DNA of 64,000 nt from Brachypterus glaber (Eukaryota > Arthropoda > Insecta > Coleoptera > Kateretidae). The notes under the pieces were generated by a model. That model saw only the letters and a list, made by a program, of their open reading frames with translations. It did no database searches and was not told where the DNA came from. The stretch lies in NCBI GenBank assembly GCA_958510825.1, contig OY294050.1:43661249-43725248 (forward strand). Direction: 5' to 3'. Below are positions 7,051 to 64,000 of this stretch, one piece after another (the stretch's first letter is position 1; each line of letters begins with the position of its first letter). The position numbers were made by a program, and so were the translations under genes.

Positions 7051-7052
7051 TA

Positions 7053-8221: not shown

Positions 8222-8223
8222 TA

Positions 8224-29475: not shown

Positions 29476-29782
29476 GCAAAAGTTTAGTTTAGGTTTAAGT
29501 AATTACTCCAAGAACAGTAATAAAACGTTTATTTAACTATTTCAGAGCATAATTATTGGTATTTTGACTATTCTGTTATTAAATAACAAACATTTCTTTC
29601 ACATGTAAAAATTATTAAATATTCAAAGTAAAATATGAGGTTAGATCTACTCAAAAAAGAACGTGTTATTGAAGGTCAGATCTCGTTCGTAATGCAATAG
29701 TGGCCCAAAATGAACACAATGTATAGTGCAATAGTGACCCACCAATTTTTTTCTCTAAGAAAGTAAAGAAAGTAAAATAATT

Positions 29783-32494: not shown

Positions 32495-34051
32495 TAAGTA
32501 AACGTTTATTAGCAAATTGCTATTTTTACAATCTAAAATAATGGTACATAAAATAATTACATAAATATAAAAAATTATAATTTAACTTATGATATAACAT
32601 TTCTTTTTATATAAGCAGCTAATAAATGTTTAAACTTGTTGTAGTTATCACAGTTTTTTAACATCACAGGTAGTTCATTGTAGTATATTATGCCTTTACA
32701 GAAAAAAGTATTATATATTTTTGTTGATGAAGGTGTTTCTACATAAAAATCGTTTCTTCGTCTTGTATTATGTTCGTGTACTTCGTTTACAAAAGTAAGT
32801 TTATTGTGTAAATAATTTGGAGCCATTTGATTTTTAATTTTGCAAACCATATCCAAAGCCTTATACCTTATTCTTTGTTCAACAGACATGAAATTTAGAA
32901 AATCTAACATAGTTTTTATTGGAGTGTGTATACTACATACTAATAGAATTCTCATGGCCTTATTTTGAATCTTTTGAAATTCTTCAGTGGTTGTTTTATT
33001 CATAGTGAGAAAAATGGTAGAGCAAAATTCTAAATGAGGACTTATTATAGATTTATACAATAAAACTTTAGTTGACATACACATGCTGCGTGATATTCTT
33101 CTTAAAAAAAAAAACTTTTTGGGACATTTTTTTCATTATATAGTTAAAGTGGCTTTCAAAACTTAAGTTTTCATCTAAAATTACACCCAGATATTTAATT
33201 TCATTTACCCTGTCCAAAATTTTATTATTTATGTAAACATTTAAGTTAGTTAAGTCTTTACCGTTTAAAATATTTTTTTTTGCCGAAAATAATGTATTTA
33301 GATTTTTTTATGTTTAAACTTAAACTGTTATTACACAAAAACTTTAAAAAATTTTCTAGATCACTATTTAGTTTTTGAAATAAATCTTTAATGTCCGTTC
33401 TCGAAATATAAATCATAGTATCATCTACAAACATTTTGATTTTACAGTGAGTTAGGTAACTTACGATGTCGTTTATGTAAAGAGCAAAAATGTCAGGTCC
33501 CAGAACCGTCCCTTGCGGCACACCATATTTGGTAAACAGCTCTTCACTTACGCTATTTTTAAATTTAACTTTTTGTTTTCTTTCACTTAAATAGTCTTCG
33601 AACCACTTTATCACCGCATTACTAACACCCATTTTTTTCAGTTTTTTTTTATAAAAAGTTTCCTATTTATGGTTTCGAAAGCACGTTTAAAGTCTAAAAA
33701 TACTGCAAGAGTTATTTCGTTTTCATCTATAGACTTTATCCACTCACTACAGCAGTACAAAATTACCGACTCACATGAGTGAAATCTTCTAAAGCCAGAT
33801 TGGTGTGGCACAATTAAATTGTTTTTATCACAGAACTGTTTTAACTGGTCCTTTACTTCTGTTTCTAAAATTTTTTCATATAGGGGCACCATGTTTATTG
33901 GGCGATGTTCCTCACTTAACTTGGAGTTTGTTACCTTAGGTACTGGCACAATACATGATGTTTTCCAGTTTTTGGGAAAAATGCCATTTTTTAATGAGTA
34001 ATTTATAACATTTAAAAAGTAACCACCTACTACTTCAAATGAGTCTTCTTC
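32495..34051 (-). mobile_element. 5'-truncated non-LTR retrotransposon inside tandem unit 6
   Basis: The array sequence ...GTGTTCTTG is broken at 32494 and resumes with TTCTTGTGCTATAAGG at 34052, so TTCTTG (32489-32494 and 34052-34057) is a target-site duplication. The insert is wholly on the minus strand: RT begins mid-domain at 34051 and the 3' end at 32495 has only a short AT-rich tail. Because the insertion splits the last unit only, it is younger than the array. Confidence 0.85.
32587..34051 (-). pseudogene. Reverse transcriptase ORF2 fragment with two frameshifts
   Basis: On the minus strand from 34051 the protein reads EEDSFEVVGGYF, then NWKTSCIVPVPK, SEEHRPINMVPLYEKILE, and motif A AVFLDFKRAFETINR (33638-33949). 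A frameshift in an A-rich run near 33633-33638 leads to MGVSNAVIKWFEDYL with motif B YGVPQGTVLGP and motif C MFVDDTMIYI (33258-33632). A second shift near 33258 leads through LGVILDENLSFESHF to the C-terminal domain STKVLLYKSIISPHLEFCST...NKAMRILL (32587-33084). FVDD instead of FADD keeps both catalytic aspartates. Both breaks lie in homopolymers and could be sequencing errors. No endonuclease remains. Confidence 0.85.
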
Positions 34052-34094
34052 TTCTTGTGCTATAAGGCACGCAAAAGTTTAGTTTTGACATAAT

Positions 34095-34189
34095 AAACTG
34101 AGAATCTATTCTTCCATGTAAAGTACAAGAACTTTATACTGGCCAATAGTCTACGTAGCTCCAATGACTGAAAATCAAACAGCACGTTA
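34095..34189. other. Short spacer after the array
   Basis: Nothing recognised. Confidence 0.3.
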
Positions 34190-34470
34190 TAACTGTACTC
34201 CCTTGGAGGATAGACACCAGATAACTTTAAATATAGGTATTTTAGGAGCTTTCTTTGTACTCTTTATACTTGCGGGCACAAAATTGTAAGTTTCCTCAAA
34301 AGGAAAAAAAAATAAGATTTCAAGCCATTTAAATTTTTCACTTTTACAAAAATTACAGACAATTTTCAACGAGTTTTTACGATATATGGGTAATTTTACG
34401 AATTAAGGCCCTTATATTTTTAGAAATTTCTAGTTAAACCTACTGAAAATTTTAAGACAATAAAACAATA
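34190..34470 (-). repeat. Dispersed repeat, copy 2 of 3
   Basis: The minus strand reads CGTAAAAACTCGTTGAAAAT, then TGTAATTTTTGTAAAAGTG, then GGCTTGAAATCTTATTTTTT, matching 41660-41800 and 4148-4262. Confidence 0.55.
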
Positions 34471-34487
34471 TGAGGTTCTCCCTACCC

Positions 34488-34848
34488 TTGCGACTTTACA
34501 ATCACGCTGAAAAAACTCTGGAAACATTCTAATAACATTTTGTAATCATGCTGTTACCAGAGTATTTCCAGAGTGTATTTGTGCCCTTTATCCATAACGT
34601 TCCCAGAGTAAAATCAGAGCGTTTTCAGAGTGTTTTCGTTTGGACTTTTTTTTTTTTTTTTTTGAAAAAAAAAAAAAAAAAGTCCAAACCCACTTTGGAT
34701 CTACTGTAAATCAAGCCTGGAACCACTCTGATTCAACTCTGACAAAATGGCACAAAACCACTCTGGAAACACGTTGGCAGCAGAATGTTTTCACTCTGAC
34801 TCTGTTTCCAGAGTGTTTCCAGAGTAAGTTGAAGGTCGCAAGGGTAAT
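34488..34848. mobile_element. Foldback element studded with CTCTGGAAA motifs
   Basis: Ends ACCCTTGCGAC (34489) and GTCGCAAGGGT (34836) are inverted. Between them ACTCTGGAAAC or its complement GTTTCCAGAGT occurs about ten times in both orientations. The centre is a T-run/A-run hairpin flanked by GGACTTT and AAAGTCC (34641-34687). Non-coding; about 360 bp. Confidence 0.75.
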
Positions 34849-35003
34849 ATTGCATACGTGAAAAAATCACATTAGTTCTTAAATATAAGAAGCCGTGAAA
34901 ATTCGCATTCAATCCATTCCATTTCAATTAAATTTAACCGCACCGTGATTAAAATTTGAAGAAAGAAGAAAATTTACTTGTAGCTACAGGCCATCAAATA
35001 ATT

Positions 35004-35450
35004 GTTATTTATGGTACTAGTGGGTAAAGTAAAATATTGCCCATGAGAAAATTAACCTGCGAGGCGTCAGCCAAGCAGGTTAATTTTCGAGAGGGCAATA
35101 TTGGTTTACCCATGAGTGCCATGAAAGGTTTTATCCAATAAATAGCTTAAGACAATTACCAGCTTTATTTTAAATAGATAAACTCAATAATAACCCCCGC
35201 GTGGCTTTTACTTTATTGAGTGGATAATTATTTATTTTACCCACTTAACTGTTACTTGTCAAATTATTTTCTTGTAAATGTCATTAAAATTTTTAATAAA
35301 AATATGAATTCCTAAGCTATTTATTGGATAAAACCTTGCATGGCACTCATGGGTAAACCGATATTGCCCCCTCGAAAATTAACCTGCTTGGCTGACGGTT
35401 AATTTTCTCATGGGCACTATCTTACTTTACCCACTAGTACCATAAATAAC
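35004..35450. mobile_element. MITE-like element with about 145-bp TIRs
   Basis: GTTATTTATGGTACTAGTGG at the left is the complement of CCACTAGTACCATAAATAAC at the right. The arms also share GGGTAAAGTAA, TGCCCATGAGAAAATTAACC and TTATCCAATAAATAGCTTA. Within each arm GTTAATTTTC and its complement form a smaller hairpin. The centre is unique. Non-coding. Confidence 0.8.
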
Positions 35451-36041
35451 TATTATGTGCCTGTCTTTTAGCGGTTTTTCCAGCTATAAATTTCAAAATT
35501 AATACAAGAATAAACGCATATATTTTGCCATTTCCAGGAAAATCATTGCATTTTAATTTCACAAAACAAAAACGCATTCCGTCCGTCAGGTCGAGTGACA
35601 TTTCAATTTGATTTTGTTGAGTGATTTTCGTTTTAATTTCAAAATATAAAAATCCTAAAATGATATTAGTTTCAACATTTGAGGGATTTAGGATCAAAAG
35701 TCAAAGTTTTTCAAAAATGAGATTTTTATACCATTAAATACATATTCCAATAGGTAACAAAATAAAATATACAGGGCGATTCACCTAACAGAAATCACTC
35801 GAATTATGACGTTATTAACTTATCCAAATAAAATTTATACCAATTAATAATAGACCCAATAAGCTAGAAGTGTGCTCAAAAAAAAGTTTGCTACTAGCTT
35901 TTGTTTTCGAGAGTCATTAATAAAATATCAATACAATATTTTACTAAAGTAATAGTTGTTTAAAAAATATTTAATAATTTTAAATTATTTAATTTAGTTA
36001 GATAATTTTTTCCCTTATAATAATATAATATAATAATAATA
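35451..36041. other. Unassigned stretch with one TA-CAGGG end
   Basis: TA then CAGGGCGATTCACCTAACAG at 35771 looks like the left end of a TA-flanked element whose right end I could not find. The 87-residue minus-strand frame at 35434-35697 has no motif. Confidence 0.35.
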
Positions 36042-36838
36042 TTGTAGGTTAGTTTTTTGGGGTATTCAATTAAAAAACTTCTTTTCTCTAAATTGTGACG
36101 TTTCAATAGGGCTTTTCTATCGTTTTCGAACCTTTAATTAATAAATACTGAATTAGCATAATTAACAACAATAAATTAAGGTATGAGCAAAATATTTTCT
36201 GCCACTATACTTACAAATTAAAATTCAACACATCTACAAACATTTTACCATAAAGTTTGACGTTATACATCCTATTTTAAATACATAAATACAGTTTTCT
36301 ACATAAATTACAGATACAAACATTGACAGGTTAAAAAATTTCTTCTTCTTCTTCTTCTTCTACTACTATTTGGCATGGCTGAACACACAGAACTAGAAAC
36401 AAAGAGGGAACCTAAGTACCTTTTGGGAAGTATGTCATTTTTGTATTTGTACCAAATTAAAGTAGACTCCACTTAACCCCTCAACATCTGATTTTTTATT
36501 TATCGAGTCTTTTTCTTTTTTTATAAAAATCATTTCTACAATTTCTCTTTTTCTCTTATGTTTTTCATTATACAGAATATCCACGTTTTCTAGATCTTCT
36601 GTATGGCCAAAATCTACAGTATGTTGTGTTAGGGCCGTGCTCTTTCTCTGTTTCCAGATTTCATAGAGCTTTCTTTAGACTTTCTGGACACTTAATTTAT
36701 TGTTGTTAATTATGCTAATTCAGTATTTATTAATTAAAGGTTCGAAAACGATAAGAAGGCCCTATCGAAACGTCACAATTTAGAGAAAAGAAGTTTTTTA
36801 ATTGAATACCTCCGATACCCCAAAACCCTAACCTACAA
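36042..36838 (-). mobile_element. Penelope-like element remnant with inverted terminal arms
   Basis: Arms 36042-36180 and 36691-36838 are inverted copies (landmarks TTGTAGGTTAG, TTTTTTAATTGAATACC, AATTGTGACGTTTC, TTTCGAACCTTTAATTAATA). Between them, on the minus strand, lies a fragment that reads like a Penelope GIY-YIG endonuclease C-terminus. Penelope-like elements are known for terminal repeats in direct or inverted arrangement and for ribozyme-like motifs there. Each arm has a CCCTAT-type segment followed by GAAACGTC, compatible with a decayed hammerhead. A (CTT)n run lies at about 36343-36360. Confidence 0.6.
36435..36674 (-). pseudogene. Penelope-type GIY-YIG endonuclease C-terminal fragment
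   Basis: An open frame of about 79 residues reads RKLYEIWKQRKSTALTQHT, then VDFGHTEDLENVDILYNEK, then HKRKREIVEMIFIKKEKDSI and NKKSDVEGLSGVYFNLV. The pattern ALxQHxxxxGHxxxxxxVxIL followed by KRxxxExxxIKK...SxNxKxDxxxLSxxY is what I know from the C-terminal end of Penelope-like endonucleases (nicking, target-primed integration). The catalytic GIY-YIG start and the RT are missing, and an in-frame stop precedes the fragment. No initiation codon is expected. The strand agrees with the flanking arm that carries the 3' features. Identification is from residue pattern alone. Confidence 0.6.
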
Positions 36839-37064
36839 AATTATTTAATTTTTAAATTTATTAATAAAATTTACATATAAGGATTACTTAGTAAGAATCC
36901 TGTGAATTTTTATCCATTTTCATCTCCATTTAGATTTTCAAGATGAGACTTTAAATGTCATAAGAGTTATATAAATTGTCAAACTTAAATATTCTTTAAA
37001 TTGGATAAACAAACTTTAATATTTTAAAAGGAGACATTTTTAATATGCGGCTATCGTCAAATGA
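36839..37064. other. Short spacer
   Basis: AT-rich, nothing recognised. Confidence 0.3.
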
Positions 37065-37773
37065 ACATTAGGAGGGACAAAAAGGTAACAACTTCCTTCT
37101 TTATTCAGATTAAAATATAATGCTGTATCGCAACTTATAAAATTAGTTCTCGAAGGTATGGATGGTAACAAAAAATGTTTGACTATAGTTCTAGATCTCG
37201 CCAAGGCATTTGACACTGTTGACCATGGGCTGCTTCTTAGGAGGCTGGAAGATATTGGCATTCGCGGCATAACGTTAAATCTCTTTAAAAATTACATTTC
37301 AAACAGACGTCAAAGAGTTAAAATAAATAATGTTTTCAGTGACCCATTGACTGTAACCAGAGGCGTGCCTCAGGGTACAGTCATGGGCCCTATTTTATTC
37401 CTAATTTACATTAACTCAATTTTTGACCTAAAAAATTTTAAAGGACAGATTTTCTCATATGCCGACGATACCGCCATTGTCTTCATAGCAAATTCCTGGG
37501 AGTAAGTCTATGGTCTTGCTGAGGATGGACTAAAGGAAGTAAAGCATTGGCTCGACTCAAGTCTTCTCAGTCTAAATGTTGAAAAAACTAATTTTGTTAC
37601 CTTCACTCTAACAAATGCTGGCCGACCAGTTAATAATAAACTGAAAATTCATAATTTAAACTGTTCTGATAACTGTAATTGTCCTTTTATAATACGCAAA
37701 ATAACAGTTAAATACTTGGGCGTACTCGTCGATCAGCATCTAAAGTGGAGGGAACACGCAAACTATTTAAGTA
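37065..37773 (+). pseudogene. Retrotransposon A, RT part upstream of the 898-bp insertion
   Basis: RT homology starts mid-domain near 37065 (GRDKKVTTSFF, then after a shift FRLKYNAVSQLIKLVLEGMD). The frame at 37158-37505 (115 residues) has motif A VLDLAKAFDTVDH (11-23), motif B GVPQGTVMGPILFLIYIN (69-86) and motif C SYADDTAIV (100-108). A frameshift at the TAA near 37503 leads into VYGLAEDGLKEVKHWL, DSSLLSLNVEKTNFVTF and VKYLGVLVDQHLKWREHANYLS, ending exactly at the inserted element. The sequence resumes at 38674. The same lineage as 12765-13196, judged by the C-terminal part. Confidence 0.85.
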
Positions 37774-38671
37774 GAGGAAAGTCGCCTAATTTCGGATACC
37801 ATTTACAATGTATTCAATATTTAATACTCGGTATTACTTTTTGATATTTTTTTTATATAACCAGATACAACTTATTATAGCGAACCATGATTTATTATAA
37901 AAGCAATTTTATTACAGTTTTTCCAAAAAACACGGTTAAAAAAAATCAGCGCATTTTTGTGCATTTGAAAAAGGGCTCCTAATTTCGGACATATCCGAAA
38001 AAATTTTTTCAAGAGTAGATCTGGATCCCATTGCTTATGTTTCTTGTTATTCCTTCACATTTAAGACGTAATTTAATCATTAAGCGATTTTCTACGAAAT
38101 ACTATAGGAACTATAATTTTAGATTCCCAATTTCGAATATCTTAGTATCTTAGGTAATTTTCGTTTTTTCAAAATTGTTTATCTTAGTTTGTTGTATCAT
38201 TATAAAAATAATAATTAATGGTTGGTTATCCTGAATAAAAATTAACTTGCGGATATCCGAAATTGGGAATCAAATGCACAAAAATGGTCTATCCGAAATT
38301 AGGCAACTTTCTGCTTTTTAGATTAGAAATTTGTAGCATGTTTACGTTTTCAAATTGCTTAATTATGAATAGTGGATCAACTTAACTAACATCATAACTT
38401 ACCCAAGACAGAATCACGAACTTTTATAACGATTATTTCTAAAATAAACAAGCATAATAATGCAACTGAGCACAAAACTGCCATTTGCAATATAAACGAT
38501 TTGTGCTGCCATTTAAAGGGGAGAAGCTCTACCGTTATCATATTACAGGACGGATTTAGTTTGACTTTTGGCTTCACATAAAAGTAGGTTTCTGTTTACC
38601 TTTGCAGACAGTACCTTAAATACACCACTATCCGAAATTTGGAAACCATCCGAAATTAGGCGCATTTCCTC
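37774..38671. mobile_element. 898-bp TIR element with TA target duplication, inserted in retrotransposon A
   Basis: Left end GAGGAAAGTCGCCTAATTTC and right end GAAATTAGGCGCATTTCCTC are inverted, each next to TA (37772-37773 and 38672-38673). Removing the element with one TA rejoins the RT frame as NYLS followed by TRLRRLIYKF, which fixes the ends. About seven copies of CCTAATTTCGGAT or its complement are scattered through it in both orientations. No transposase is encoded. The TA duplication fits Tc1/mariner-type mobilisation. Confidence 0.85.
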
Positions 38672-38673
38672 TA

Positions 38674-39054
38674 CTAGGCTGAGGAGACTGATATACAAGT
38701 TTTATCAACTTAGATCCATTTTGTCTCGTCAGCTTCTGTATTTAGTGTATAGTGCTTTGGCGGAATCTGTGATTAGATACTGCATTCGTATCTGGGGTTC
38801 CATGTTTGACAATTCAATCAATGGCTTAGAGGTCACGCAAAAAACTTTGTTAAAAATAATATTTAATAAAACTCGTTTGTACTCTACCGATCTACTGTTT
38901 CATGAAACTCACTTATTTTCAGTCAGGCAACTTTTTATTTACCACACAGTCTTTTGGACACACCAAAATATTAAAGAATTTCCAGTTAGTTGACATTTTG
39001 AGAATAATCTTAGTGTCCCATTATATAAAAAAAATGGTACACAAAAGTCCTTTT
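38674..39054 (+). pseudogene. Retrotransposon A, middle of the C-terminal region
   Basis: It continues the protein after the TA element: RLRRLIYKFYQLRSILSRQL, LYLVYSALAESVIRYCIRIW, VTQKTLLKIIFNKTRLYST, LFHETHLFSVRQLFIYHTVF. A stop at 38991-38993 is followed, in a shifted frame, by HFENNLSVPLYKKNGTQKSF, and the sequence is then cut by retrotransposon B near 39055. The ATG at 38568 belongs to the inserted element and is not a real start. Confidence 0.8.
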
Positions 39055-40198
39055 ATTATTTTTTTTTTTATTTATTTACGGGATACCCCCTTTTTTAAAT
39101 ATTACAAAAATGTTTTCACATTAAATATGTTAAAATAAATTAATAATTAATAATAATTAAGTTAGAAATATATGAAATAATTATTAAATACATAAAAATC
39201 AGATTACATAATAGAATGTAGGAAAATAAAATAAAATACATATCTTCTAACGGGGAGTGACTGAAACTATTGAATGACTAGCTCAGTACGTTTTAACCTA
39301 TATTTCAACTGACCCAATGATATTCCAGTTATATTAACCATCGGATTCAAATTTGATAGTTGCATCATTCTGTTCAATGGGCTATGGTATGTATAATTGG
39401 AGTTATGAAAACCTATATAAAATAAAAAATTTGTTCGCGTCCTGTAATTTGTGTTAAAATTGATTTTAGCCAAAATAGTGGGACATTCTAGTTTTCCAGA
39501 CAGTACTGAGTTAAGAATGCAAAGATCAGATTTATAACGACACTGAAGTAGAGTGTCAACCTTTATCCGATCGTTAATAGCTGCATAGTTATAAACAAAG
39601 TTTTCTCTTGTTATACCAAGTCTATATCCTGCAATCCTCATAAAGCGACGTTGGACAGATTCTATTAAATCGATATTGATTTGGTAGCATGGTGACCATA
39701 TTACTGCTGCGTATTCAAGGTTAGGTCTTACTATAGTGCAGTAAAGGTGTTTATAGGTCTCAACTGTGAATTCACCACTCATTCTTGTAACATAGCCTAG
39801 AATTTGTAGGGTTTTTATGATACAACCCCGTATGTGACTGTTGAAGTTTAACTGTTTGTCGAAGACAACTCCTAAATCTTTAATTTCTTCAACTATTTGT
39901 AGTTGGGTACCATTCATTTCATAATAGCTTTCTAAAGGTCTTAAGATTCTATGAAACGTAATTGAGTAGCATTTACTTATGTTTAAGGTCATACCATGTT
40001 TTTTAAACCAAATAATTAAATTATCCATGTCACACTGAACAAGATACTGATCACAGATTGACCGCACCATCTTATATAACTTTAGGTCATCTGCAAACAG
40101 TAGTATTTCACAATATTTTATTACCAAAACAATATCGTTTATAAATAAAAGAAAAAGGAGAGGTCCAATATGTGAGCCCTGAGATACTCCAGAGGTTA
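39055..40198 (-). mobile_element. Retrotransposon B, 5'-truncated, inserted in retrotransposon A
   Basis: Minus-strand element with its A-rich tail at the left (plus-strand T run at about 39058-39068) and a 5' truncation at about 40198 within RT motif B. Retrotransposon A sequence resumes at once with KYAPKFYNKIP, which completes the C-terminus begun at 38674. B is therefore younger than A. Exact ends and target duplication are unclear by a few bases. Confidence 0.85.
39267..40197 (-). CDS. Reverse transcriptase and C-terminal domain of retrotransposon B, 5' partial
   Basis: The frame opens at the truncation with VTSGVSQGSHIGPLLFLLFI (motif B) and is unbroken to the stop at 39267, about 309 residues. 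Motif C is LLFADDLKLY, followed by IWFKKHGMTLNISKC, DLGVVFDKQLNFNSHI, TIVRPNLEYAAVIWSP, LIESVQRRFMRIAGYR and a C-terminal RTRTNFLF...SPLNRMMQL...GISLGQLKYRL. Motif A and the endonuclease are lost, so no activity is expected. The intact frame marks it as the youngest retrotransposon here. A predicted internal ATG at 40127 is not a true start. Confidence 0.85.
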
Positions 40199-40305
40199 CA
40201 AGTATGCTCCTAAATTCTATAATAAAATTCCTGTTTGTTTAAAAAAGGTTGCAAATCAACAAAAGTTTAAATCAGAATTAAAAAAAAATTATTTATCTAG
40301 GGGCT
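40199..40305 (+). pseudogene. Retrotransposon A, C-terminal end
   Basis: Reads KYAPKFYNKIPVCLKKVANQ, then QKFKSELKKNYLSRG and a TAG at 40303-40305. It matches the end of the 12765-13196 frame (YARKWFNMIPENIKN, QKYELKKYVL) and so completes the split protein. Confidence 0.75.
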
Positions 40306-40499
40306 AGTTTAAATACTTGACGTCACATACTTGAGTACTTTTTTACTGATATACGAGGACTGTTAAAAATATTAAATATCTTATTCTTCAAATATGGATT
40401 TAGGTTGCAAAAACATTGCTTTCCCATTTTGAAAATTTTCAAAATTTCGGAAAGCCTTGTATTCGTGCAAAAATTTTCAAATTATTTTTTGTGTATTTT
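40306..40499. other. Probable 3' UTR of retrotransposon A and spacer
   Basis: AT-rich. No poly(A) or tandem tail could be fixed. Confidence 0.3.
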
Positions 40500-41165
40500 T
40501 GCGTTTTATGACGTTTATATAAATCAATTACGAGCAAAAATAAAATATATCGATCGGTCGGTCGGTCGGTCGGTCGATCGGTCTGTCCGGGAAATCTTGT
40601 GGGCACGATAACTTAAGAACGCTTTAAGCTAGAGACTTGAAATTTGGCATACACTGTATTACAGGTATGTTACCAAAAGTTCTAGCTCGGGATTGTTTTT
40701 GGTAAACATTGGTGTGCGGCAAAAATTTGAAAATTAATGTATGGGGGTTTTCAAGGATGCTGAAATTGAATCTGATAATAATTTCTTTTTAACTCCACCT
40801 CCACGGGGGTCGGGGGGTAAATATTTTTAAATATTTTCAATATTTCCGTGAAGATTGGTATATAGGGGTTTTGTGGTCGATGAATATAAATCTGATAATA
40901 TTTTTTTCCTAATTTCACCCCTGAGGGGTGGGGGATAGTTTTCGTGAAAACTGGTGTATTGGGGTTTTTGAGGTTGCTGAAAGTGAATATGATAATACAA
41001 ATATTCTAAATCCACCCCCTGAGGGGTGAGGGGTAGTTGTGAAAGGGAATCTGATTATAACAAAATTCTAACTTCACCCCCAAAGGGACAGAGGGTAGTT
41101 TTCGTGAAAATTGGTATACTAAGGTTTTTAGGGTTGCTAAAAGTGAATCTGATAATAAAAAAATC
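40500..41165 (+). repeat. GGTC-microsatellite repeat family with degenerate internal units, copy 1
   Basis: GACGTTTATATAAATCAATT and ACGAGCAAAAATAAA lead to (GGTC)n at 40555-40583 and CTGTCCGGGAAAT, then CACGATAACTTAAGAACGCT and TTAAGCTAGAGACTTGAAAT. It continues with about four degenerate units of about 105 bp (40740-41165) containing CACCCCTGAGGGGTG, TTTTCGTGAAAA and TTTTTGAGGTTGCTGAAAGT. A shorter copy lies at 60700-60950. Non-coding. Confidence 0.65.
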
Positions 41166-41639
41166 CATTTTACGAGCGGATGTGAAAAATGGGAAAGCTC
41201 TTTTACTGGGCAGTGTATTAAAATTGGTTTGAAAAATGAATTTACTATAAGGAAAAATAAATGAATTTTCGAAATTGTGCATTTTCAGTTAGTTATGTTT
41301 AAAATTTAGATAAGTATAACTGCAGCTCAAAAACAAAAGCTAGTGGAAAACTTTTGTTTAGGCGAACTTGTAACTTGTTGGGTTTGGACTTTTTATATTT
41401 AAATGAGAAGAAAATCCGAAAACCAGCAACACAGGGAAATAAATACGAGAATAAAAATATTATGTACATAGTTTTGATATATAACCCTTCCCTACCTCCG
41501 AAAGAAAAATATTAAAAATTTGACGGTATTCAAACGCATTGGCGATGACATACCTTATATTTTTTTATTACCTTAAAATTTTCATTGAGATGTTACTAGA
41601 AAATTTTGAAAATATAAGAGTTATCACACCTCTCTAAGG
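41166..41639. other. Unassigned stretch
   Basis: No gene or repeat recognised. Confidence 0.3.
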
Positions 41640-41810
41640 GTGGGCCCTTGAAATTCCTAAAATAACCCATAAATCGTAAAAAGTCGTTGAAAATTGTTTG
41701 TAATTTTTATATGAGTGGAAAATTAAAATTGAAATCCTATTTTTTCCTTTTAAGCATACAAAATTAGGTACCAATTTTCAAAAGAATCAATAGATTCTAA
41801 CCCGTGCCGA
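41640..41810 (+). repeat. Dispersed repeat, copy 3 of 3
   Basis: AATCGTAAAAAGTCGTTGAA, then GAGTGGAAAATTAAAATTG, then CAAAATTAGGTACCAATTTT follow the order of 4148-4262. Confidence 0.55.
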
Positions 41811-42023
41811 AACTCCGCCAAAGTTGCCCCTAAAACACTAAAATTTACGAATTTCTGCCATAAATGTGAGCCAAACGGTAAATAAATATTTTAAGAACGT
41901 ATCAGATCGGACTGAATTTATTTTTAATCAAGCATTCTAATAATTATAATTATTCATAATATTAAAAACACTGGAACAATGTCACTGGTATCATAAATGT
42001 ATTATAAAATATTGTAGGTAAAT

Positions 42024-42035
42024 ACCATATGGGTT
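42024..42035. repeat. Left 12-bp target-site duplication
   Basis: ACCATATGGGTT, repeated exactly at 42478-42489, brackets the ribozyme-bearing element. Confidence 0.75.
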
Positions 42036-42125
42036 AGGACAGAAATTTTTAATTTTAAACAAAATTATAAAAATATTAATTTATTATTCCATCAATCTAT
42101 TTTCTAATCATCGTACAGAGTGATA

Positions 42126-42170
42126 TTGGTAGACTGACAGTTTCGGGCTGCTGGCCCTCTTCAGTACCAA
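42126..42170 (-). ncRNA. Hammerhead ribozyme, minus strand
   Basis: Exact reverse complement of the plus-strand ribozyme at 42382-42426, with the same core, stems and predicted cleavage site. On the minus strand it runs from 42170 to 42126, with cleavage expected between 42132 and 42131. Confidence 0.75.
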
Positions 42171-42381
42171 GAGTCAACTCTGCACGCTGATTAAGAAAAC
42201 GTTTTTAGACTTTACTCGCAAAAGGAATATAGCCATTCAAAGTCTCCAGATTAGGAGAGGTATGAGTAGTTGTCTACATCTAGAAATAGATGGCGCACAA
42301 ATCTCCATCAATCTAATGGCTATATTCCTTTTGCGAGTAAAGTCTAAAAACGTTTTCTTAATCAGCGTGCAGAGTTGACTC

Positions 42382-42426
42382 TTGGTACTGAAGAGGGCCA
42401 GCAGCCCGAAACTGTCAGTCTACCAA
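42382..42426 (+). ncRNA. Hammerhead ribozyme, plus strand
   Basis: Complete fold by inspection. Stem I is TTGGTA (42382-42387) with TACCAA (42421-42426), 6 bp. Core box 1 is CTGAAGA (42388-42394), matching CUGANGA. Stem II is GGGC with GCCC around loop CAGCA (42395-42407). Core box 2 is GAA (42408-42410). Stem III is ACT with AGT around GTC (42411-42419), with the A-U pair next to the cleavage base C at 42420. Cleavage would fall between 42420 and 42421. The very short stem III is known from hammerheads of Penelope-like elements and similar retroelements. Activity is not proven; tertiary loop contacts cannot be judged. Confidence 0.8.
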
Positions 42427-42477
42427 TATCACTCTGTACGATGATTAGAAAATAGATTGATGGAATAATAAATTAAA

Positions 42478-42489
42478 ACCATATGGGTT
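42478..42489. repeat. Right 12-bp target-site duplication
   Basis: Exact repeat of 42024-42035. Confidence 0.75.
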
Positions 42490-42863
42490 GCCAAACTTCG
42501 AATGTAATTTTCTGATTTGTAATAAAACTTGGATTTTTGGGCAGGTTTTAATGCGGGGGGGTGGGATACGTACCTGTTGGCCAATGTTACCACAGAGAAT
42601 TGACTTATGCTGGATTCGACCCACAAAAATAAACATGTTACATGTTTTTCACTGCGAACGACGCTTTTAACCTACAAATTTTCGACATGGTGTCCAAACC
42701 AATTTTTATATTTTAATGTATTATTTATTGTTTTTATGTTTGTAAAATGTTCCTTGTCCGTAATATGTTCAATTTAATAATAAATATGACTACGCTCACA
42801 AAATTTTAGGTAAGAAATTTACATATTTTATCTGAAAATGAGATTCAATACAGTCAAAAATAG
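42490..42863. other. Unassigned stretch
   Basis: Short frames on both strands near 42429-42670 have no motif. No repeat recognised. Confidence 0.3.
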
Positions 42864-42990
42864 TATATTATTTACCAAGTGAGAGAAGTTTAACATTTTT
42901 GACCTGCGTCAAATTGCAGGATGAGCGCGCTAGCGCGAAGCCCGCAAGACGCGGTCTAAAATGTTAAATCTTCACTCACGTGGAAAATAT
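42864..42990. repeat. Short palindromic element
   Basis: TATATTATTTACCAAGTGAG pairs imperfectly with CTCACGTGGAAAATATA, and AAGTTTAACATTTT with AAAATGTTAAATCTT, around a GC-rich centre (GAGCGCGCTAGCGCG). About 127 bp. Confidence 0.55.
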
Positions 42991-43020
42991 AGCATTTTTT
43001 TCACTACCAGTACAATTAAT

Positions 43021-43053
43021 TAGCTATTTATTTATTTATTTATTTATTTATTT
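43021..43053. repeat. (TTTA)n microsatellite
   Basis: About eight TTTA units; could be a retroposon tail on the minus strand, but no body was found. Confidence 0.8.
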
Positions 43054-43223
43054 TACTAAAATTAATAAAAAAGCTTATAAATTTAAAATATCACGCTAGC
43101 CGTTTGCGGCCATTAAAAAAACAAATGAATAACTTGACATTTCTGGCAGAAATTTTCTGGTGATCTGCTAAAATTATTAAGTTAGAAAGTGTTTCCGTGT
43201 TAAGTGTAATAAAATATATAAAA

Positions 43224-43352
43224 ATGGAAAGTAAAATGCAAAGTGATGATTCTGGTACTCCCCCAGAAATAAGGAGAGAGGCGAAAACTGTGAGGGAGAA
43301 TCTATTGCCTCAAAAATCAATATATGGGGGTTGTACCTCTAGTAATATATGA
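43224..43352 (+). CDS. Short frame starting MESKMQSDDSGTPPEIRREA, possibly the 5' end of a larger protein
   Basis: A 42-residue frame starts at an ATG in an A-rich context (AAAAATGG) after a plausible leader and reads MESKMQSDDSGTPPEIRREA, then KTVRENLLPQKS, then IYGGCTSSNI and TGA. Its composition (charged, no low complexity) looks more like real coding sequence than other short frames here. The LLPQKS segment reminds me of the N-terminus of tyrosine-recombinase-like (Crypton-type) proteins in insects, but that is recollection only. The frame is cut after QKS, where such proteins would continue, so this is either a truncated copy or a first exon; no good GT donor is visible. Confidence 0.3.
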   Translation: MESKMQSDDSGTPPEIRREAKTVRENLLPQKSIYGGCTSSNI

Positions 43353-43746
43353 TCCTTAAGGTAATATATGGGTTATATATGATGGACCAATGATTTTCAC
43401 TTTTCGAAGTGTTTTTCGTATAACATGTTTTATAGGTACTAATTTAGTTAATATTTTTTAATTTATCATGCAATAAATAAATTTGGTGCCTAAAGACACT
43501 TGTAAGTAGCAATGTGATTTAATAATTAAGTGAAACGTCAGATGCCAAAACAGCTGAAAAAAAATTCATTATTAACCATGGTGCAATATCATTATTTTTA
43601 GAACCTCTGACGTCATAGGTAGAGAAATAATATTTGTACCAATGAAAAGAACAGTAATAAAGATGCGCTTTTAGGCTGGTGGTGAAAAAATATTTTTGTT
43701 ATATATTATCATTATTATTATATTATTAACAATAGTTGTTATCTTT
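43353..43746. other. Unassigned stretch
   Basis: No feature recognised beyond short AT repeats. Confidence 0.3.
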
Positions 43747-43860
43747 CAGCTTTGATAAAGCCCCCAAGAGGGGAGAAACGTTAGCGATAAAATAAAGTGA
43801 CGCATTAAAACCTGCCAAAAAATCCGAGTTTTATTACAAACCAAAAAATTATATTACAAA
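43747..43860 (+). repeat. Possible decayed Penelope-type terminal repeat
   Basis: TTTGATAAAGCCCCCAAGAG then GGGAGAAACGTTAGCG has the order of a hammerhead (core, C/G stem, GAAAC), but core bases differ (TTGATAA for CUGANGA), so it cannot be active. It is followed by GATAAAATAAAG. Confidence 0.35.
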
Positions 43861-45184
43861 ATATGATTTTAAATTTGTTTGCTTTAATGAAAACAGATAA
43901 GAAATCGAGTTCCACTATAAGCTTTTGACTAAGAAAACTACGAAAAAATAATAAAAGAATCAATTTTCATAAAGTAAAAAATGTATAAGCGAATACTCAG
44001 CATTGCCCAATATTTGGACGCCAATACTTAATGATGAATTATCACGCGATAAGTTAACTTTACCCTCGTTCCAATAAAAAATCTAAGTTTAATTCCTTTT
44101 CTTTTAATTGTTGCGGGTTTTCCTGTTTTTCGATCGATTTATCATAATTTTGAAATTGGTCATATTTTAACTGATATAATACATAGACAAGGAAAGACCT
44201 CCAAAGCCGTTGCGGAATACTGTTGTTTTTGACGAGTATTTTTTAACCTTAGTTTTGTGTCAAATAAAAATTGTAAAAAATTCAACATAAAAAACAATAA
44301 TTATCTACGAAGAAACGTCGAAATTATTTCGACGAAATAGTTTTTTTTAAATTATTTTATATGAATTTTTGAGTTGTGTTTGAGTTTCGGGATTTTGTAC
44401 ACCTACTTTGAGTACACCCTTTGACCCTTTGCTCTTCATAAAGCAACAATACAGGTTAAGTTTAAAGTTATAAACAAATGCAGCAAAAAAACAGTTAAAA
44501 CACAGTAGAAGTCGAAAAATGAACAGACACAAACGACGATCTGACAGTATAAACAAACTACTAATAATTCGTCACCCCAGTATTGGTTTTCCATATCTCT
44601 ATTTTTGGACATTTTAAGATTTTTACTGGGGGATTTTTGGAGATAAGACAAATGAATACTGGGGTGATGAGTTCTTTTACGACCGACAGCATTTCACAGC
44701 TGATAGAGATGCGTACTGCGCAAGGTCAGATGCAGACGCACTTTTCATGTATGTATCTATTACAATCACATATCGGCCTGGCGATAAAAAGCTGAACCAA
44801 GCTTCAGAACTCTCTGATTTTTTTGTTACTTTCTCTTCTTGTTGTTTTTTGTTTTTGTCATTTTTTTTGGTCAACTACTTCGCATGGCAATATTAGAAAC
44901 ACAGCTACTCAGATAGCAATCTCAAAAAATTACCTTTTCCCACGACCTAGTTAGTAGTTAGTGCGTATTTCCCACCCGTTGCCTATGACAACGGTCGGGA
45001 AGTAAAAAGCAGCTGATTTTACATATCTGCTGTCAGAAAATTAGCAAACGTCAAACAAATAACCTCAAATTGACAAACTAAATTTAAGATAATTTTTGCG
45101 TTTTTAGGATGTTTACGTGTTAGGTCGTAGAAAAAAATAGTATAGGCACCTCGACGCAAACCATTTCAGTGCACATCGGTAATA
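43861..45184. other. Unassigned stretch with a short palindrome
   Basis: TCACCCCAGTATTGG (44570) and AATACTGGGGTGATGAG (44652) are inverted and bound a hairpin of about 100 bp. Other short frames have no motif. AAGGTAGTAGTTAGTGCG-type sequence near 44950 is unremarkable. Confidence 0.35.
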
Positions 45185-46148
45185 CACGGTGTATTTGAAA
45201 TAGGGTCGGAAATTTTAACAGATGATTCTACATCATAAAATATGACAAAAAGTTCCTATAAACATATGTCTAAAAATGCGTCATAAGGGAGCTACGCCCC
45301 TTTGAAAGTGGCTAAAAAAATCGGTTTTTATTTAATAACTCAGGAACCCTTTGAGATATATCAACGAGGTTTTGCACGTCAACTAATTCTACCAAGTCCC
45401 GTTTTTATGTGTTATTTTCGTGTACTTATTTCAACCAGGGGTGTGCGAAACGGGGGGGGCTTATCAGTTTTTTGTCCCAAACTTTTTTCTGTGTAACTTT
45501 TTTGCAATTTTATTTTTGAAATATGATTCCTCAGGTCAAAATACATAAAAAAGTTACTATTGTTGTAATACTGTAGGATTAACCGTTTTCGAGAAAAATT
45601 CATTTGAAGGTGAAATTCCACGGTTCGAGGACGAAAAATTAAATACTAAAATGTTGAAAACCAAAATTTTAATGATGCAGGGCGAATGTACATTAAAAAC
45701 TAAGAAAAAAACCTCATATACAGGTACTTCCAAAAATCAATCCTAATGGAGCTATGGTCTCCTAAATATGCACCATTTTTAAAGGGCTATGGTAGCTTTA
45801 AAAGCGTTTTTTCGACCTACATGTATTGAAACTTTTTTTCTTAGTTTTTGATGTAGAATAACATTGCATCATTAAAATTTTGGTTTTCGACATTTTAGTA
45901 TTTAATTTTTCGTCCTCAAACCGTGAAATTTCACCTTCAAATTAACTTTTCTCGAAAACGGTTAATCCTACAGTATTACAACAAGAGTACCTTTTTTATG
46001 TATTTTGACCTGAGGAATCATATTTCAAAAATAAAATGGCAAAAAAGTTACACAGAAAAAAGTTTGGGACAAAAAACTGATAAGCCCCCCCCCGTTTCGC
46101 ACACCCCTGGTTTAAAAAAGTACGTGAAAATAACATACAAAGATGGGC
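45185..46148 (+). mobile_element. CAGGGTG foldback, copy truncated at its right end
   Basis: Follows the full copy at 7053-8221 closely from the left terminus (CACGGTGTATTTGAAATAG) through both arms, but stops at AAGATGGGC (46148), about 250 bp before the expected right end. The next base begins the minisatellite TIR element family, so the two are fused at one junction. Confidence 0.8.
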
Positions 46149-46577
46149 TTTACATTCATTATAAATTACGATCTTTATCAACCAATAGATCTTTAAAGAA
46201 AGATTTAAGCAGTTTATACTCGTATTAAGGGTGCAAATCGTTTGGTTTATTAAATCAAATGAACTTTACGCTACGATATTTCAAAAAACCTTTGACACAG
46301 AGACTTTTTGGACAATTTGGAACAAAAATTTTCTAAGTAGTAAATATTTTTTTTCAAATTTCAAGTCTATGCAAAATATTACCATTCTGGACTATGTAAT
46401 TTTTACCGTTCCGGTCTATGCAAAATATTACCATTATGGACTATGTAATTTTTACTGTTCCGGTCTATGCAAAACATTACCATTACGGACTATGTAATTT
46501 TTACCATTCCGGTCTATGGCAACATATTACCATTTACGAACTATGTAATTTAATGTAATTTATTTCTTCCGTGCAGA
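46149..46577 (+). mobile_element. Minisatellite TIR element, copy 3 (right part)
   Basis: Starts inside the family at TTTACATTCATTATAAATTA and continues through TCAACCAATAGATCTTTAAA to about four units of the 49-bp minisatellite (46370-46560) and the terminus TTCTTCCGTGCA. The left third is missing. Confidence 0.7.
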
Positions 46578-47049
46578 TTAAAATTAACCAAATTTAGGTC
46601 TGAGTTATGAATCACTTTTGATTGGTCAAACACTATTAATTTGAATTAAGCTGGTTGGTGAAACTGGACCTTATTAGGGTGCAGTTAATTTTTAGTCCCC
46701 ATTTTTATTTATTTTATTATTTGCTCGAGTGACTGGTAATTTAATTTTGTCCAGTCCGGTTAGGGCGATTCAAAGTTCCCCCAATGGATTACATACCTCG
46801 ACAATAGTAATAGAAAAAATCTCAGTAACTTTTCAGTCTCATTGTTGGTTTCAAATTAAGATCTATTTAAGTTTTCACGTAAATGGACGCTAGACGTCGT
46901 AACGCGTCTACAAAACTTTTATGTTTTTTATGTACTGATTTTTTTCTGAACTTAAATGCCCCAAAAAAGCTCGAATATGTTCGGCGATCATGTTGGTAGG
47001 TCCTCGTCAAGAACAATAGATCCCTATCTTAACGATAATACTTTTAGGT
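46578..47049. other. Unassigned stretch
   Basis: No gene or repeat recognised. Confidence 0.3.
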
Positions 47050-48940
47050 AATGAAACGCCCTTTGACTAATCGTAAGGTACTCACGGAGAGCTTTGACCT
47101 ACTTTTAATCCGAAATGTAATAACTCTTAGTTTTTCTTCAGAAATTGATTTGGGGCATCCCCTTATTTTAGGGACAAAAAAACCGTTGGGGCACTTCTTA
47201 AGAAAATCGATTTTTATTTGTTTTTATATTTTTTTTCTGTGTATGTTGAATTATTATTAATGACATCGAAACAGTTTTTTTTAAAGCAATTTTGTACAAT
47301 TTCTTTTTTTTTTTTGTTTTTCATTTGTTTCTGAGATATTTAAAATCAAAATTGACAAAACTCATTTTTTAATCAAATCATCCAGTTTTATGGAAATATT
47401 TTAAATAGTTGGATAATATGGAATGATCTTAACACAATTTGCAAATATTTTAATAAAAATGGCTCTAACCAACGCCAACTTAATTTTATCGTATTTTGTG
47501 GTGATTTTCTAACATAAAAATTGTAGATGGCGTTAAGCTAATTTCAGATTATTTTAAAATTTTTAAATATCTCAACAGGTTACAATGGCAGACTTGATTG
47601 AAAAATGAGTTTTGTCAAATTTGATTTTAAATATCTCAGAAACAAATGAAAAACAAAAAACAGAAATTATACAAAATTGCTTAAAAAAATAAACCCTTTC
47701 GATATCAGTAATAAAAATTATACATACATTAAAAAAATATAACAACAAATGAAAATCGATTTTCTTAAAAAGCGCCCGAGGATTTTTTTGTTTTACTCCT
47801 AAAATAACACTAGGCAACACGGTATCTTGCCCTGATTGGAGTCATATGTTTTTTTAACTAATTTTGGGTCGCTGAGACAGAATCTGGCCTCAGAATATTT
47901 CGATTACCTAAGGTTTCTGAGAAAAATGAGACAAAAGTGGTAACAAATCATTATTTTAGCCCTTTTTTTCTTCTAAAATCGTGGGAGATATTCTGAGGAT
48001 AAATTTAGATTCGGCGACTCAATATTAGTTAAAAAATACCCAAATTGGAACATGGAAACTTTAAATACATAGGTAAAATAAATAGGGATATTATGGAAAA
48101 AAAAATATTTAAAAAAAATGGATCCTGTACAAAACTAAGTAGGGGTGTAGGGTAAGAAGAAGGGGACAAGCTTATCGCCACGTACTCATGCTAAAAATCG
48201 TCAAAAATCATAACTAGGGGATCAAAATGAACTAAAAATATGTTATGTAATACGGTTCTTATGTAATAAAGTAAAATTTTTATGATGTAAAACCTTTAAA
48301 AAATTATTTTTAAATTGGCATAATTTCCTGTACTAAAATTTAAAAATTAAGACGTGCTGGATTTTTTTTAAGGTCAAATTCAGATTCTGCGCCTTTAAGT
48401 TGACAAGAAAAATATATTTTTTGGGCTCGGGAAAAAAGTTTACACTGTGTGCTGTAATTTTATTTCTTTTTCATTTATTTACTTTTTACGAACAAACTAA
48501 GCAAAATAAAAAAATATTTGTATAAATATTTTTGTAGAGAATTTTATAATCTACAAATTAAGTTCTAAAATTTCTTAAATTTTATACAAATTTGATAGTT
48601 TTGCTACAAATGAGCATATAGATTTTTAAATTCCTCCTATTTTTTTAATATACCCTAAAATTTTCAAAAACCTACTCTTTTTTTTTAAAGATTTTGAAAA
48701 AAATCGTCATTATTTCCTTGACTTATATCTCAAAAATTTTAGGTGCTGGAATTGTTCTAATGTCAGATTCGCATTCTACGCCCTCGAATTAGTAAGAAAA
48801 ATTTACTTTTCGATCGGGGCAAAAAAAAAGTTGCGATTTGTTGCCTAGAGTAATCAGGGGGTGTCCCCAAATCAATTTCTGAAAAAAAAAATTAAGAGTT
48901 ATTATATTTCTGATTAAAAGTAGGCCCAAGTTTGCCGTGC
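47050..48940. mobile_element. Composite foldback element of about 1.9 kb
   Basis: The left end (ACTTTTAATCCGAAATGTAA, TCAGAAATTGATTTGGGGCA at 47101-47158) is inverted at the right end (48855-48925: CCCAAATCAATTTCTGA, ATTAAAAGTAGG). A further inverted copy of 47160-47390 lies inside at 47570-47820 (AAAATCGATTTT, TATCTCAGAAACAAATG, GAGTTTTGTCAAATTT). The stretch 47860-48800 holds several CTGAGACAGAATCTGG-type motifs. Non-coding. Confidence 0.6.
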
Positions 48941-48957
48941 ACTAATATCCAAGGTTA

Positions 48958-49230
48958 TTAACAGTCATCGGCGAATTGCCAGCGCTCGCATAGTCGCCGC
49001 GTCGATTCTATCGTTGACGCGAGGTTTTAAATATTTACATTTTTATTTTCTTCGAAAAACACCGATATATTTACATATTTATAGTTAATATGTATATTCA
49101 ATATTGTTGTGTGTAACAAATTAGTCGTCAAATGTTTCGATTTAGTGACCTTTATAAAAATTTCCATCATAATTCGGCAAAATTATTCCGTAAGCCTATG
49201 TTTCTGTGTTTATTTTCAACGTTGATGTTT
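48958..49230 (-). mobile_element. Small TIR element family R, copy 2
   Basis: Right terminus first: CAGTCATCGGCGAATTGCCA, then CGCATAGTCGCCGCGTCG and TTGACGCGAGGTTTTAAAT, running into TTTCGATTTAGTGACCTTTA and TTCAACGTTGATG, the complement of 27708-28059. The flank TTAA lies directly before CAGTC. Confidence 0.65.
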
Positions 49231-50524: not shown

Positions 50525-51168
50525 ATAATTGAATTTTTTTCCTATGATCCCCTATGAAAATGACATTTACCACACTCTCTTGTTCTTTAGAAAACGCCTT
50601 ATATCACCCTTGTTTGATATTTTCATATCACCCTAGTTTGATATATATGTATGTAGATTTGCCTAATTTTGTTTAGATATTTACGTTGTAAATTCTACAA
50701 ATTTTACTCATCTCGTTTTATATGCCATTTTCCACCTTTCATTACAGACTTTTCTTTATGTCTTTTGTCTTTTTCAATCCAAATATTTCTGTGTTTCATG
50801 TCAAAAATAAAACTATAGTTAAAACCTTACTATTTTGACCCATGTCAATATAACTTAATATGTTTTATTAATGTCTAGATTTTATAAAAATTATTTAATT
50901 TGTGATTTAAGTTAGTTACCTTACATTTTATATAAAACATCAATATTTCCTCATGAAATGTAAAACATTGTAGAATTTTAGTCTAATATGGTAGCGTATC
51001 AACAGAAATCAAATTTAATTAGAAAACTGTCGAATTTTCCTTGATTAAAAGATGCTTGCGGTTAGGCAACCCATTAAACAGTGTTGAGCTTCCATAATAT
51101 CTTGTATTAAATATAAAACCAAGAAAACTAAATGTAAATAAAAAACGTATTTCCTGTTGACATACATA
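50525..51168 (+). repeat. Repeat family P, plus copy
   Basis: TGAAAATGACATTTACCACA, CTAGTTTGATATATATG, CATTTTCCACCTTTCATTAC, CATTGTAGAATTTTAGTC and GATGCTTGCGGTTAGGCAAC match 25335-25960 inverted and the first third of each 52.8-57.2 kb unit. It is cut at 51168 by the TA-bounded foldback. Confidence 0.75.
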
Positions 51169-52372
51169 CAGAGCGGTCCAAAAGTCACCCCCCCCCTCTT
51201 AACTTTTGAACCAGTTGAGATATCGACTTCAAATTTGGAACTTTTAAATAAGACAACTTAAACTATCTTTTAGCATATATTTAATACTTTCAGCTCTTAA
51301 AATGTGGGCAGGGGGGCATGGGGGCTCATTTTTTTAAATGGAGAGGGGAGTCGTGTAATACATTATTTTAAAGCTTATAAAATTCTCCATTTAACTCCAT
51401 ATTTTTAAATTAAAAAAAAATTTTGGGTTTAAAATGGCGTTGAAAATGGGAATTAATGTCAAAATTCCTCTAAAAAAAAAACAAATAATTTTTTAAAAAT
51501 ACCTAATTTCATCATAAAAAAATGTTAATTATACTTTTAAACTAATTTTAGTTGACATAAATAAAAATTTATAAAAAAAACTTAAAAAATCGAATGTTTT
51601 AGCACAAAAATTGAAAAATCAAAACCTTAAAAAACATTTTTAAAAAATTTAAAAATGTTAATTTAAATAGAGAATTTTATAAGCTTTAAAAGGATGTATT
51701 ACACGACCCCCTTTTCTATTTAAAAAAATGTCCCCCCATGCCCCCCTGCCCACATTTTAAGAGCTGAAAATATCAAATATATGCTAAAAGATAGTTTAAG
51801 TTGTCTTATTTAAGAGTTATAAATTTGAAGTCGATATCTCAACTCGTTCAAAAGTTAAAGGGGGGGGGGGCGGTGACTTTTTAAACATTTTTAAATTTTT
51901 TAAAAATGTTTTTTAAGGTTTTTATTTTTCAATTTTTTGTGGTAAAACATTTGATTTTTCAAGTTTTTTTTTATAAATTTTTATTTATGTCAACTAAAAT
52001 TAGTTTAAAAGAATAATTAACATTTTTTTATGATGAAATTAGGCATTTTTAAAAAAATATTTGTTTTTTTTAGAGGAATTTTGATATTAATACCCATTTT
52101 CAACCCGATTTTAAACCCAATTTTTTTTTAATTTAAAAATATGGAGTTAAATGGTGAATTTTATAAACTTTAAAATGTTGTATTACACGACCCCCCTTTC
52201 CATTTAAAAAAATGTGCCCACATGCCCCCCTGCCCACATATTAAGAGCTGAAAGTATTAAATATATGCTAAAAGATAGTTTAAGTTGTCTTATTTAAAAG
52301 TTCCAAATTTTAAGTCGATATCTCAACTGGTTCAAAAGTTAAGAGGGGGGGGGTGACTTTTGGATCGCTCTG
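51169..52372. mobile_element. 1.2-kb composite foldback bounded by TA
   Basis: Ends CAGAGCGGTCCAAAAGTCAC and GTGACTTTTGGATCGCTCTG are inverted, with TA outside both. The terminal module A (about 230 bp: AACTTTTGAACCAGTTGAG, TGGGCAGGGGGGCATGG, GTCGTGTAATACATTATTTT) occurs three times: at the left, inverted at the right, and inverted again in the middle (51660-51880). A second module B lies between (51410-51655 and, inverted, 51885-52130). Order: A, B, A inverted, B inverted, A inverted. Non-coding. Confidence 0.8.
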
Positions 52373-52780
52373 TATAATCCTTGTGCACTCCGAGGTTATA
52401 TTGTTAAATAACTGAAGTTTGAGGAATTGGTAACATTTCAAAGGAATTTTAATATTCCGCATAACATTATCTGCGAGTATAGTTTTATTTTCATAACATC
52501 TGACAAAATAATTCTTTGTAAGGCATATAAAAGTTTGTATTCATGTAAGTAAGATCGGTCTATCATAAATAATATACATATAACCAACGGGTAAAATTTT
52601 ATAATATTTCTATTTATATGCAAATTTAATATGGACCAAATAAACCCTCAAGTTATTTTCTAAATTAGATTCCAGCGACAAACTTCATTTGCCATAATTG
52701 CCTCTCTGATGTTTCACTTTTCTGCATATTTATGTTTGCTGATATAATAAAAAATAATTAAGCTTTAATATAGTGTAAAA
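52373..52780. other. Unassigned spacer
   Basis: The segment AAACTTCATTTGCCATAATT and GCCTCTCTGATGTTTCAC at 52680-52725 is the same as the junction segment inside the following tandem units, so the array may begin nearer 52670. Otherwise nothing recognised. Confidence 0.4.
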
Positions 52781-63990: not shown

Positions 63991-64000
63991 TGGTTTTTTT

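Follow-up and report, generated by a model that had tools for sequence, protein, structure and literature searches.

Non-LTR retrozymes of Metazoa, as described in excerpts of Cervera and de la Pena (2020, PMC7229834), are protein-less repeats of low GC content with monomers of 170 to 400 nt, which carry a type I hammerhead ribozyme with a closed stem III, form tandem arrays, and share their genomes with Penelope-like elements (PLEs). According to the same excerpts, transcription, hammerhead cutting, and circularization of retrozymes have been shown in other animals, while their helper was only proposed. The portions of a 2020 review used here (PMC7761336) state that no motif in metazoan retrozymes reveals the helper and name PLEs or Terminons as likely. 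For PLEs, inverted terminal repeats (pLTRs) with a tail and a target duplication have been described (Arkhipova et al. 2013, PMC3846280, in part), and purified PLE protein from Anolis initiates reverse transcription at two neighboring sites that match the tail, with both target strands being cut and extended by it (Frangieh et al. 2024, PMC11167929, in part).

We analyzed a 64,000-nt stretch of the Brachypterus glaber genome (the window), which holds an inverted-repeat element at 42036-42477 with a hammerhead motif on each strand. The family to which it belongs resembles the metazoan retrozymes of the PMC7229834 excerpts in its type I hammerhead with closed stem III, tandem arrays, a 354-nt monomer within the published range, low GC, lack of protein, and the occurrence of PLEs in the same genome, whereas those excerpts contain no description of inverted head-to-head insertions, of an alternative 40-nt tail, or of target duplications. 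With PLEs, as far as the excerpts of PMC3846280 and PMC11167929 extend, it has in common head-to-head inverted copies, an optional 30-40-bp tail at one end, a short target duplication, and a hammerhead in the repeated part; unlike PLEs, it has no RT/GIY-YIG reading frame. Its hammerhead also has a 3-bp stem III with a triloop, whereas PLE hammerheads are reported to be minimal and usually without helix III (PMC6155905, in part). Like plant LTR retrozymes (PMC4918200, in part), the family is nonautonomous, with a hammerhead and a predicted processing to RNA units, but the plant elements carry a type III hammerhead in direct LTRs together with a primer-binding site and a polypurine tract (PMC11722881, in part).

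On sequence grounds, the window element is very probably a single insertion of a nonautonomous metazoan retrozyme that was moved in trans by PLE enzymes. The original prediction considered that an inverted ribozyme pair might be undescribed. For PLEs, inverted repeats accompanied by a tail and a duplication are known (PMC3846280), yet no description of inverted retrozyme pairs was found in the literature searched (including PMC7229834, PMC7761336, PMC11722881, PMC8490949, PMC3088659, PMC6155905, PMC6431247, and PMC8969392), which was covered in part, so that a prior description is possible. Each component has precedents, namely retrozymes, the hammerheads of PLEs, and PLE insertions with inverted copies plus a tail; the same partial coverage showed no retrozyme copies with the PLE signature. 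The structural evidence presented here bears directly on the open question of the retrozyme helper.

Layout of the window copy

Positions within the family unit are given as monomer coordinates, with m1 at window position 42238. The hammerhead core spans m145-189, with predicted cleavage after m183 and the motif CGAAAC at m170. The window copy comprises the following features.

42024..42035, no strand: target site duplication, left copy, 12-bp ACCATATGGGTT, direct repeat flanking 42036-42477
42036..42237, minus: left retrozyme unit, 5'-truncated, sense on the minus strand (m78-279)
42036..42075, minus: AT-rich 40-bp tail (m240-279), present at the left unit's 3' end and absent from the right unit; in tandem copies the monomer runs on through it
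42100..42199, minus: hammerhead of the left unit in full, distal stem I included, mirroring that of the right unit
42126..42170, minus: type I hammerhead core, left unit, from a descriptor match, with predicted cleavage after 42132
42233..42237, no strand: head-to-head junction with 5-nt microhomology CCATT, the overlap of left and right units in the monomer mapping
42233..42476, plus: right retrozyme unit with plus-strand sense (m350-354, then m1-239), ending without the tail
42353..42452, plus: whole hammerhead with distal stem I, right unit, containing the distal-stem duplex
42382..42426, plus: type I hammerhead core, right unit, from a descriptor match and the Rfam register, with predicted cleavage after 42420
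42478..42489, no strand: target site duplication, right copy, 12-bp ACCATATGGGTT, direct repeat flanking 42036-42477

The identical inverted arms of the original prediction were recovered at 42076-42237 and 42315-42476, each 162 nt long, with 100% complementarity and a gap of 77 nt, and so was its 12-bp flanking direct repeat; chance flank repeats of at least 12 occurred at 3 of 1,500 random places. The apparent 77-bp spacer (42238-42314) belongs to the right-hand unit as its upstream portion, and in direct monomers it runs into the arm without a break. The element is asymmetric, with 40 AT-rich bases that separate the left arm from its duplication and have no right-hand partner, a layout unexpected for a DNA transposon with terminal inverted repeats. 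Its outer ends correspond to m279 (with tail) and m239 (without tail).

GC content of the retrozyme unit is 0.35-0.39. No ORF of at least 100 aa lies over the element, the RT/GIY-YIG frame of an autonomous PLE is absent from it, and no Pol III boxes were reported within it. A six-frame Pfam scan of window positions 34001-48999 returned one RT stretch only (~37158-37724), and a search for the empty site by joined flanks had no match within the window. A transcript of the whole element would probably form one long hairpin in which its own ribozyme is silenced. A 12-nt match between the spacer and an arm end was dropped as a possible junction trace; the monomer places this match inside the unit, where pairing in the RNA is possible.

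A family of direct 354-bp monomers

The genome (648 Mb in 842 contigs) was searched with the whole element (148 candidates, 40 scored, 128 matches) and with a single direct monomer (863 candidates, 40 scored, at least 179 matches). For the whole-element set, 45 loci were fetched and five same-place duplicates removed, leaving 40. The family unit is a direct 354-bp monomer (consensus of nine copies) in which the 77-bp spacer, the arm, the tail, and 75 further bases are continuous. Tandem arrays reached at least seven direct units in L023 and at least eight full units at C11:44896307-44899476. Full hammerhead regions, 60 in number and 49 of them distinct, were distributed across 39 of the 40 mapped loci. 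The size and composition of the unit of this large family, together with its type I hammerhead and the absence of a protein, identify the family as a metazoan non-LTR retrozyme. The original prediction had named as an adverse outcome that the arms might be parts of a longer unrelated element; they do derive from a longer monomer, yet this monomer carries the hammerhead too.

Head-to-head pairs and their junctions

Inverted pairs were present in 26 of the 40 whole-element loci and, from a table read by eye, in 16 of the 40 direct-monomer loci. The whole-element query is itself inverted and favors inverted loci, whereas the monomer query carries no such bias. Two loci occurred in both sets (L015 and L023, the latter inverted only in a wider view), and across the union an inverted pair was found in 41 of 78 loci. 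All 41 ran minus-then-plus, which places the two units head-to-head with both 3' ends facing outward; there were no tail-to-tail pairs among the 78 loci examined, and in the other 37 no inverted pair was detected. Junctions of the 26 mapped inverted loci fell at 25 coordinate pairs, and this variability indicates that the inversion arises at insertion rather than being inherited. Taken together, the monomer, the direct tandem arrays, and the variable inverted pairs speak against the inverted pair being the unit that moves. The original prediction of a minimal mobile ribozyme unit thus stood as regards a mobile, protein-less element with a hammerhead and a target duplication, but not as regards the inverted pair being that unit.

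The one recurring junction, m78|m350 with the microhomology CCATT, was common to the window copy (L001) and L003, which occupy different sites with different duplications and have their tails on opposite sides; either recurrence or inheritance could account for it. Zero overlap was seen at 2 of 16 gapless junctions compared with 124 of at most 300 simulated ones, while mean overlap was 2.38 observed versus 3.07 simulated, and microhomology at the junctions is suggestive only. When the edges of the 14 direct-only loci were checked for short inverted pieces, there was one doubtful 15-nt match, in L022. This inverted hammerhead piece (m146-160, at positions 1148-1162) lies where a tandem retrozyme copy is truncated on its 5' side and is perhaps a very short head-to-head partner.

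Outer ends, tail, and target duplications

Among the 52 outer ends of the 26 inverted loci, 23 mapped to m277-295 (with tail) and 15 to m230-248 (without tail), giving two preferred end sites ~40 nt apart. These clusters lie 70 and ~110-116 nt from CGAAAC (m170). One end of each class was found in 13 of the 26 loci and two ends of the same class in none; the other 13 had at least one end outside both clusters and thus no clear tail/no-tail pair. In the direct-monomer set, 7 of 16 inverted loci showed a clear tail/no-tail pair, and exceptions to the end rule there were C4:56262 (ends 300/280) and C1:54484 (ends 233/243).

Comparing the flanks of other genomic copies, as had been suggested for the 12-bp repeat, supported target duplication. 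Flanking duplications of at least 9 bp were present at 14 of 40 loci versus 4 of 400 control pairs, and those of at least 11 bp at 10 of 40 versus 1 of 400. Duplications of 5-8 bp only, at 21 of 40 loci, were at control level, and none of at least 5 bp was found at the remaining 5 of 40. Duplication lengths differed between copies, and some of the longer duplications were of low complexity.

The hammerhead motif

Each arm holds the parts of a type I hammerhead: stem I (TTGGTA/TACCAA), CTGAAGA, stem II (GGGC/GCCC), GAA, and a stem III (ACT/AGT) of 3 bp closed by the triloop GTC. The core residues are all canonical in the window copy and in the family consensus, in line with the full hammerhead per arm of the original prediction, and the predicted ribozymes have their cleavage C at 42420 (plus) and 42132 (minus). 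Stem I is long and collinear and extends past an internal loop into a distal stem, whose duplex (-27.4 kcal/mol) was reached by none of 2,000 shuffles. A loose hammerhead descriptor gave seven matches on 100 Markov-shuffled windows, one of them equal to the observed match; hammerhead descriptors matched no other inverted-repeat element of the window.

The Rfam search that had been proposed as a check gave a divided answer. There were no gathering-level matches in the window, and a permissive search of 701 bases returned seven matches at E<=10, none of them a hammerhead. On 96 bases, however, RAGATH-1-hammerhead (RF03152) ranked top of 4,227 families in the right register (21.3 bits, E 0.072), a score far below the gathering threshold of 56.3 bits, so that by the Rfam rule the motif is not a member. 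Exact motif scans of prokaryote and viral collections gave no match, as expected for a eukaryotic element.

The hammerhead helices had no support from covariation, with 94.8% paired against a shuffled mean of 94.8%. Core positions mutated at 2.3-4.1% versus 2.6-7.5% elsewhere in the motif, and the hammerhead-constrained fold (-36.1) was 6.3 kcal/mol weaker than the unconstrained one (-42.4), tertiary contacts being left out of both values. Cleavage by the ribozyme would be expected from the motif.

Insertion signature of PLEs in the same genome

Searching the genome for GIY-YIG (419 candidates, 150 scored, 31 matches) yielded 30 PLE-type loci for analysis. L071 encodes RT and GIY-YIG within one 610-aa frame, the PLE hallmark, and L056 combines an RT end (below the Pfam cut-off) with GIY-YIG. 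The 47 database relatives of L056 were mostly assigned to PF26215 and partly to PF00078, the named ones coming from sea urchins, a coral, Lepidoptera, and Hydra.

A strict PLE hammerhead descriptor matched none of the 30 loci, while a looser minimal hammerhead pattern matched 15. The PLEs of this genome have CGAAACGTT in place of the 3-bp stem III with triloop. In 5 of the 30 loci the hammerhead occurred on both strands, and all five were head-to-head. The outer flanks of four of these shared 11, 14, 14, and 15 bp, and the same four had ends 73-77 nt and 103-108 nt from the start of CGAAACGTT (CGAAAC); the fifth, L057, had no clear flank repeat or end spacing. Mismatched PLE flank pairs (n=20) shared 6-12 bp, none reaching 14, so that three of the flank repeats (14, 14, 15) exceed all controls and the 11 bp of L074 lies within the control range.

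Among the matches listed, none established sequence homology between the end regions of the PLEs and those of the retrozyme. The best of these matches (3.6e-6) was a diverged retrozyme-like fragment in L049 (~318-393), 73% identical over m173-252, ~1.1 kb from a PLE GIY-YIG domain and on the opposite strand. This fragment hints at a second, older retrozyme family. In their insertions, PLE and retrozyme follow one strand rule, duplicate the target, use two end sites, and place these at roughly similar distances from the hammerhead, as measured at four PLE loci.

Proposed integration mechanism and alternatives

The tail, the head-to-head pairs, and the duplication are like those of PLEs of the same genome, the only retroelements of this genome with which the signature was compared, and point to PLEs as the source of the helper enzyme; we infer a dependence of the retrozyme on PLEs from this likeness. 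Under the proposed mechanism, tandem copies would be transcribed and their hammerheads would cut the RNA into 354-nt units, perhaps circularized as in other animals (PMC7229834, excerpts). A PLE GIY-YIG/RT protein would then nick both target strands, each 3' end priming a cDNA, with cDNA starting at m~280 (tail) on one strand and m~239 (no tail) on the other. Both cDNAs would run inward and be joined head-to-head, perhaps at short microhomology (CCATT in the window copy), repair would duplicate ~9-14 bp of the target, and long cDNAs would leave tandem units. The inverted ribozyme pair would be the footprint of integration.

A broader proposal, for which we see the chances as even, is that animal retrozymes are parasites of PLEs that mimic the PLE 3' module by geometry and not by sequence, with a hammerhead followed by RT start sites ~70 and ~110 nt from CGAAAC; every insertion would be begun by two cDNAs, one per target strand, and head-to-head joining would be a normal PLE-type step. 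If this holds, each retrozyme copy is a record of PLE integration down to the nucleotide. With many copies showing the PLE signature of their own genome, the helper question can be put to a direct test by combining a single PLE protein with a single retrozyme RNA, and the family would supply many small natural records of two-cDNA joining.

Several other origins of the window element deserve consideration. Copying of the inverted pair as a whole could give the same junction in the window copy and L003, yet the tails of these two lie on opposite sides and a 5-nt microhomology at their junction makes independent recurrence possible; together with the 25 junction coordinate pairs across 26 inverted loci, the presence of direct tandem arrays, and the 37 loci with no inverted pair detected, this leaves an inverted mobile unit largely refuted and very improbable. 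Less credible still is a foldback or MITE-type DNA transposon with a chance hammerhead: the window is rich in inverted-repeat elements and its copy has both a duplication and inverted arms, but 40 nt separate one arm from the duplication, many family loci are direct only, and duplication length, arms, and junctions differ between copies. We also consider it improbable, if slightly less so than whole-unit copying, that a LINE-type enzyme moved the family and that the inversions stem from twin priming. Other reverse transcriptase genes do lie within the window, and twin priming also yields inversions inside a target duplication; however, it inverts the 5' segment without repeating the 3' end, whereas both retrozyme units end at the same 3' region, and the tail, head-to-head rule, and end spacing are like those of the PLEs of this genome.

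The main doubt about the mechanism is whether the hammerhead is active or needed, because covariation is lacking, mutation is near-even, a competing fold is more stable, and cleavage was dispensable in Anolis in vitro. The hammerhead could be a decayed or inactive relic with no role in mobility, the end region alone sufficing, a reading compatible with mobilization by PLEs and one we regard as unlikely but clearly more plausible than the three above. The near-uniform mutation over the motif, the missing covariation, and the competing fold fit it, as does the insertion of an Anolis PLE in vitro without need for hammerhead cleavage (PMC11167929, in part). On the other side, the core residues are canonical in the window copy and the family consensus, the 354-nt tandem organization is what hammerhead processing would use, and copies decay after insertion, so that uniform mutation is expected either way.

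Other features of the window

RVT_1 reverse transcriptase frames or remnants were located at 1120-2385 (plus), 33258-33632 (minus), and 37158-37724 (plus). The named relatives nearest to the first of these come from insects (Callosobruchus, Homalodisca, Photinus, and Cryptotermes). Inverted-repeat elements are dense in the window (25 overlapping rows), including 4268-5323, 7044-8230, 45398-46147, 51166-52375, and 62797-63999, among others. Large direct repeats ~1,480 bp apart at ~52814-57525 (ORFs at 54051, 55531, and 57011) are probably a long-period satellite or array. At ~29194-32333, a short match recurs every ~642 bp (29194, 29837, 30480, 31121, and 31763, the next at 32316), which suggests a second tandem repeat.
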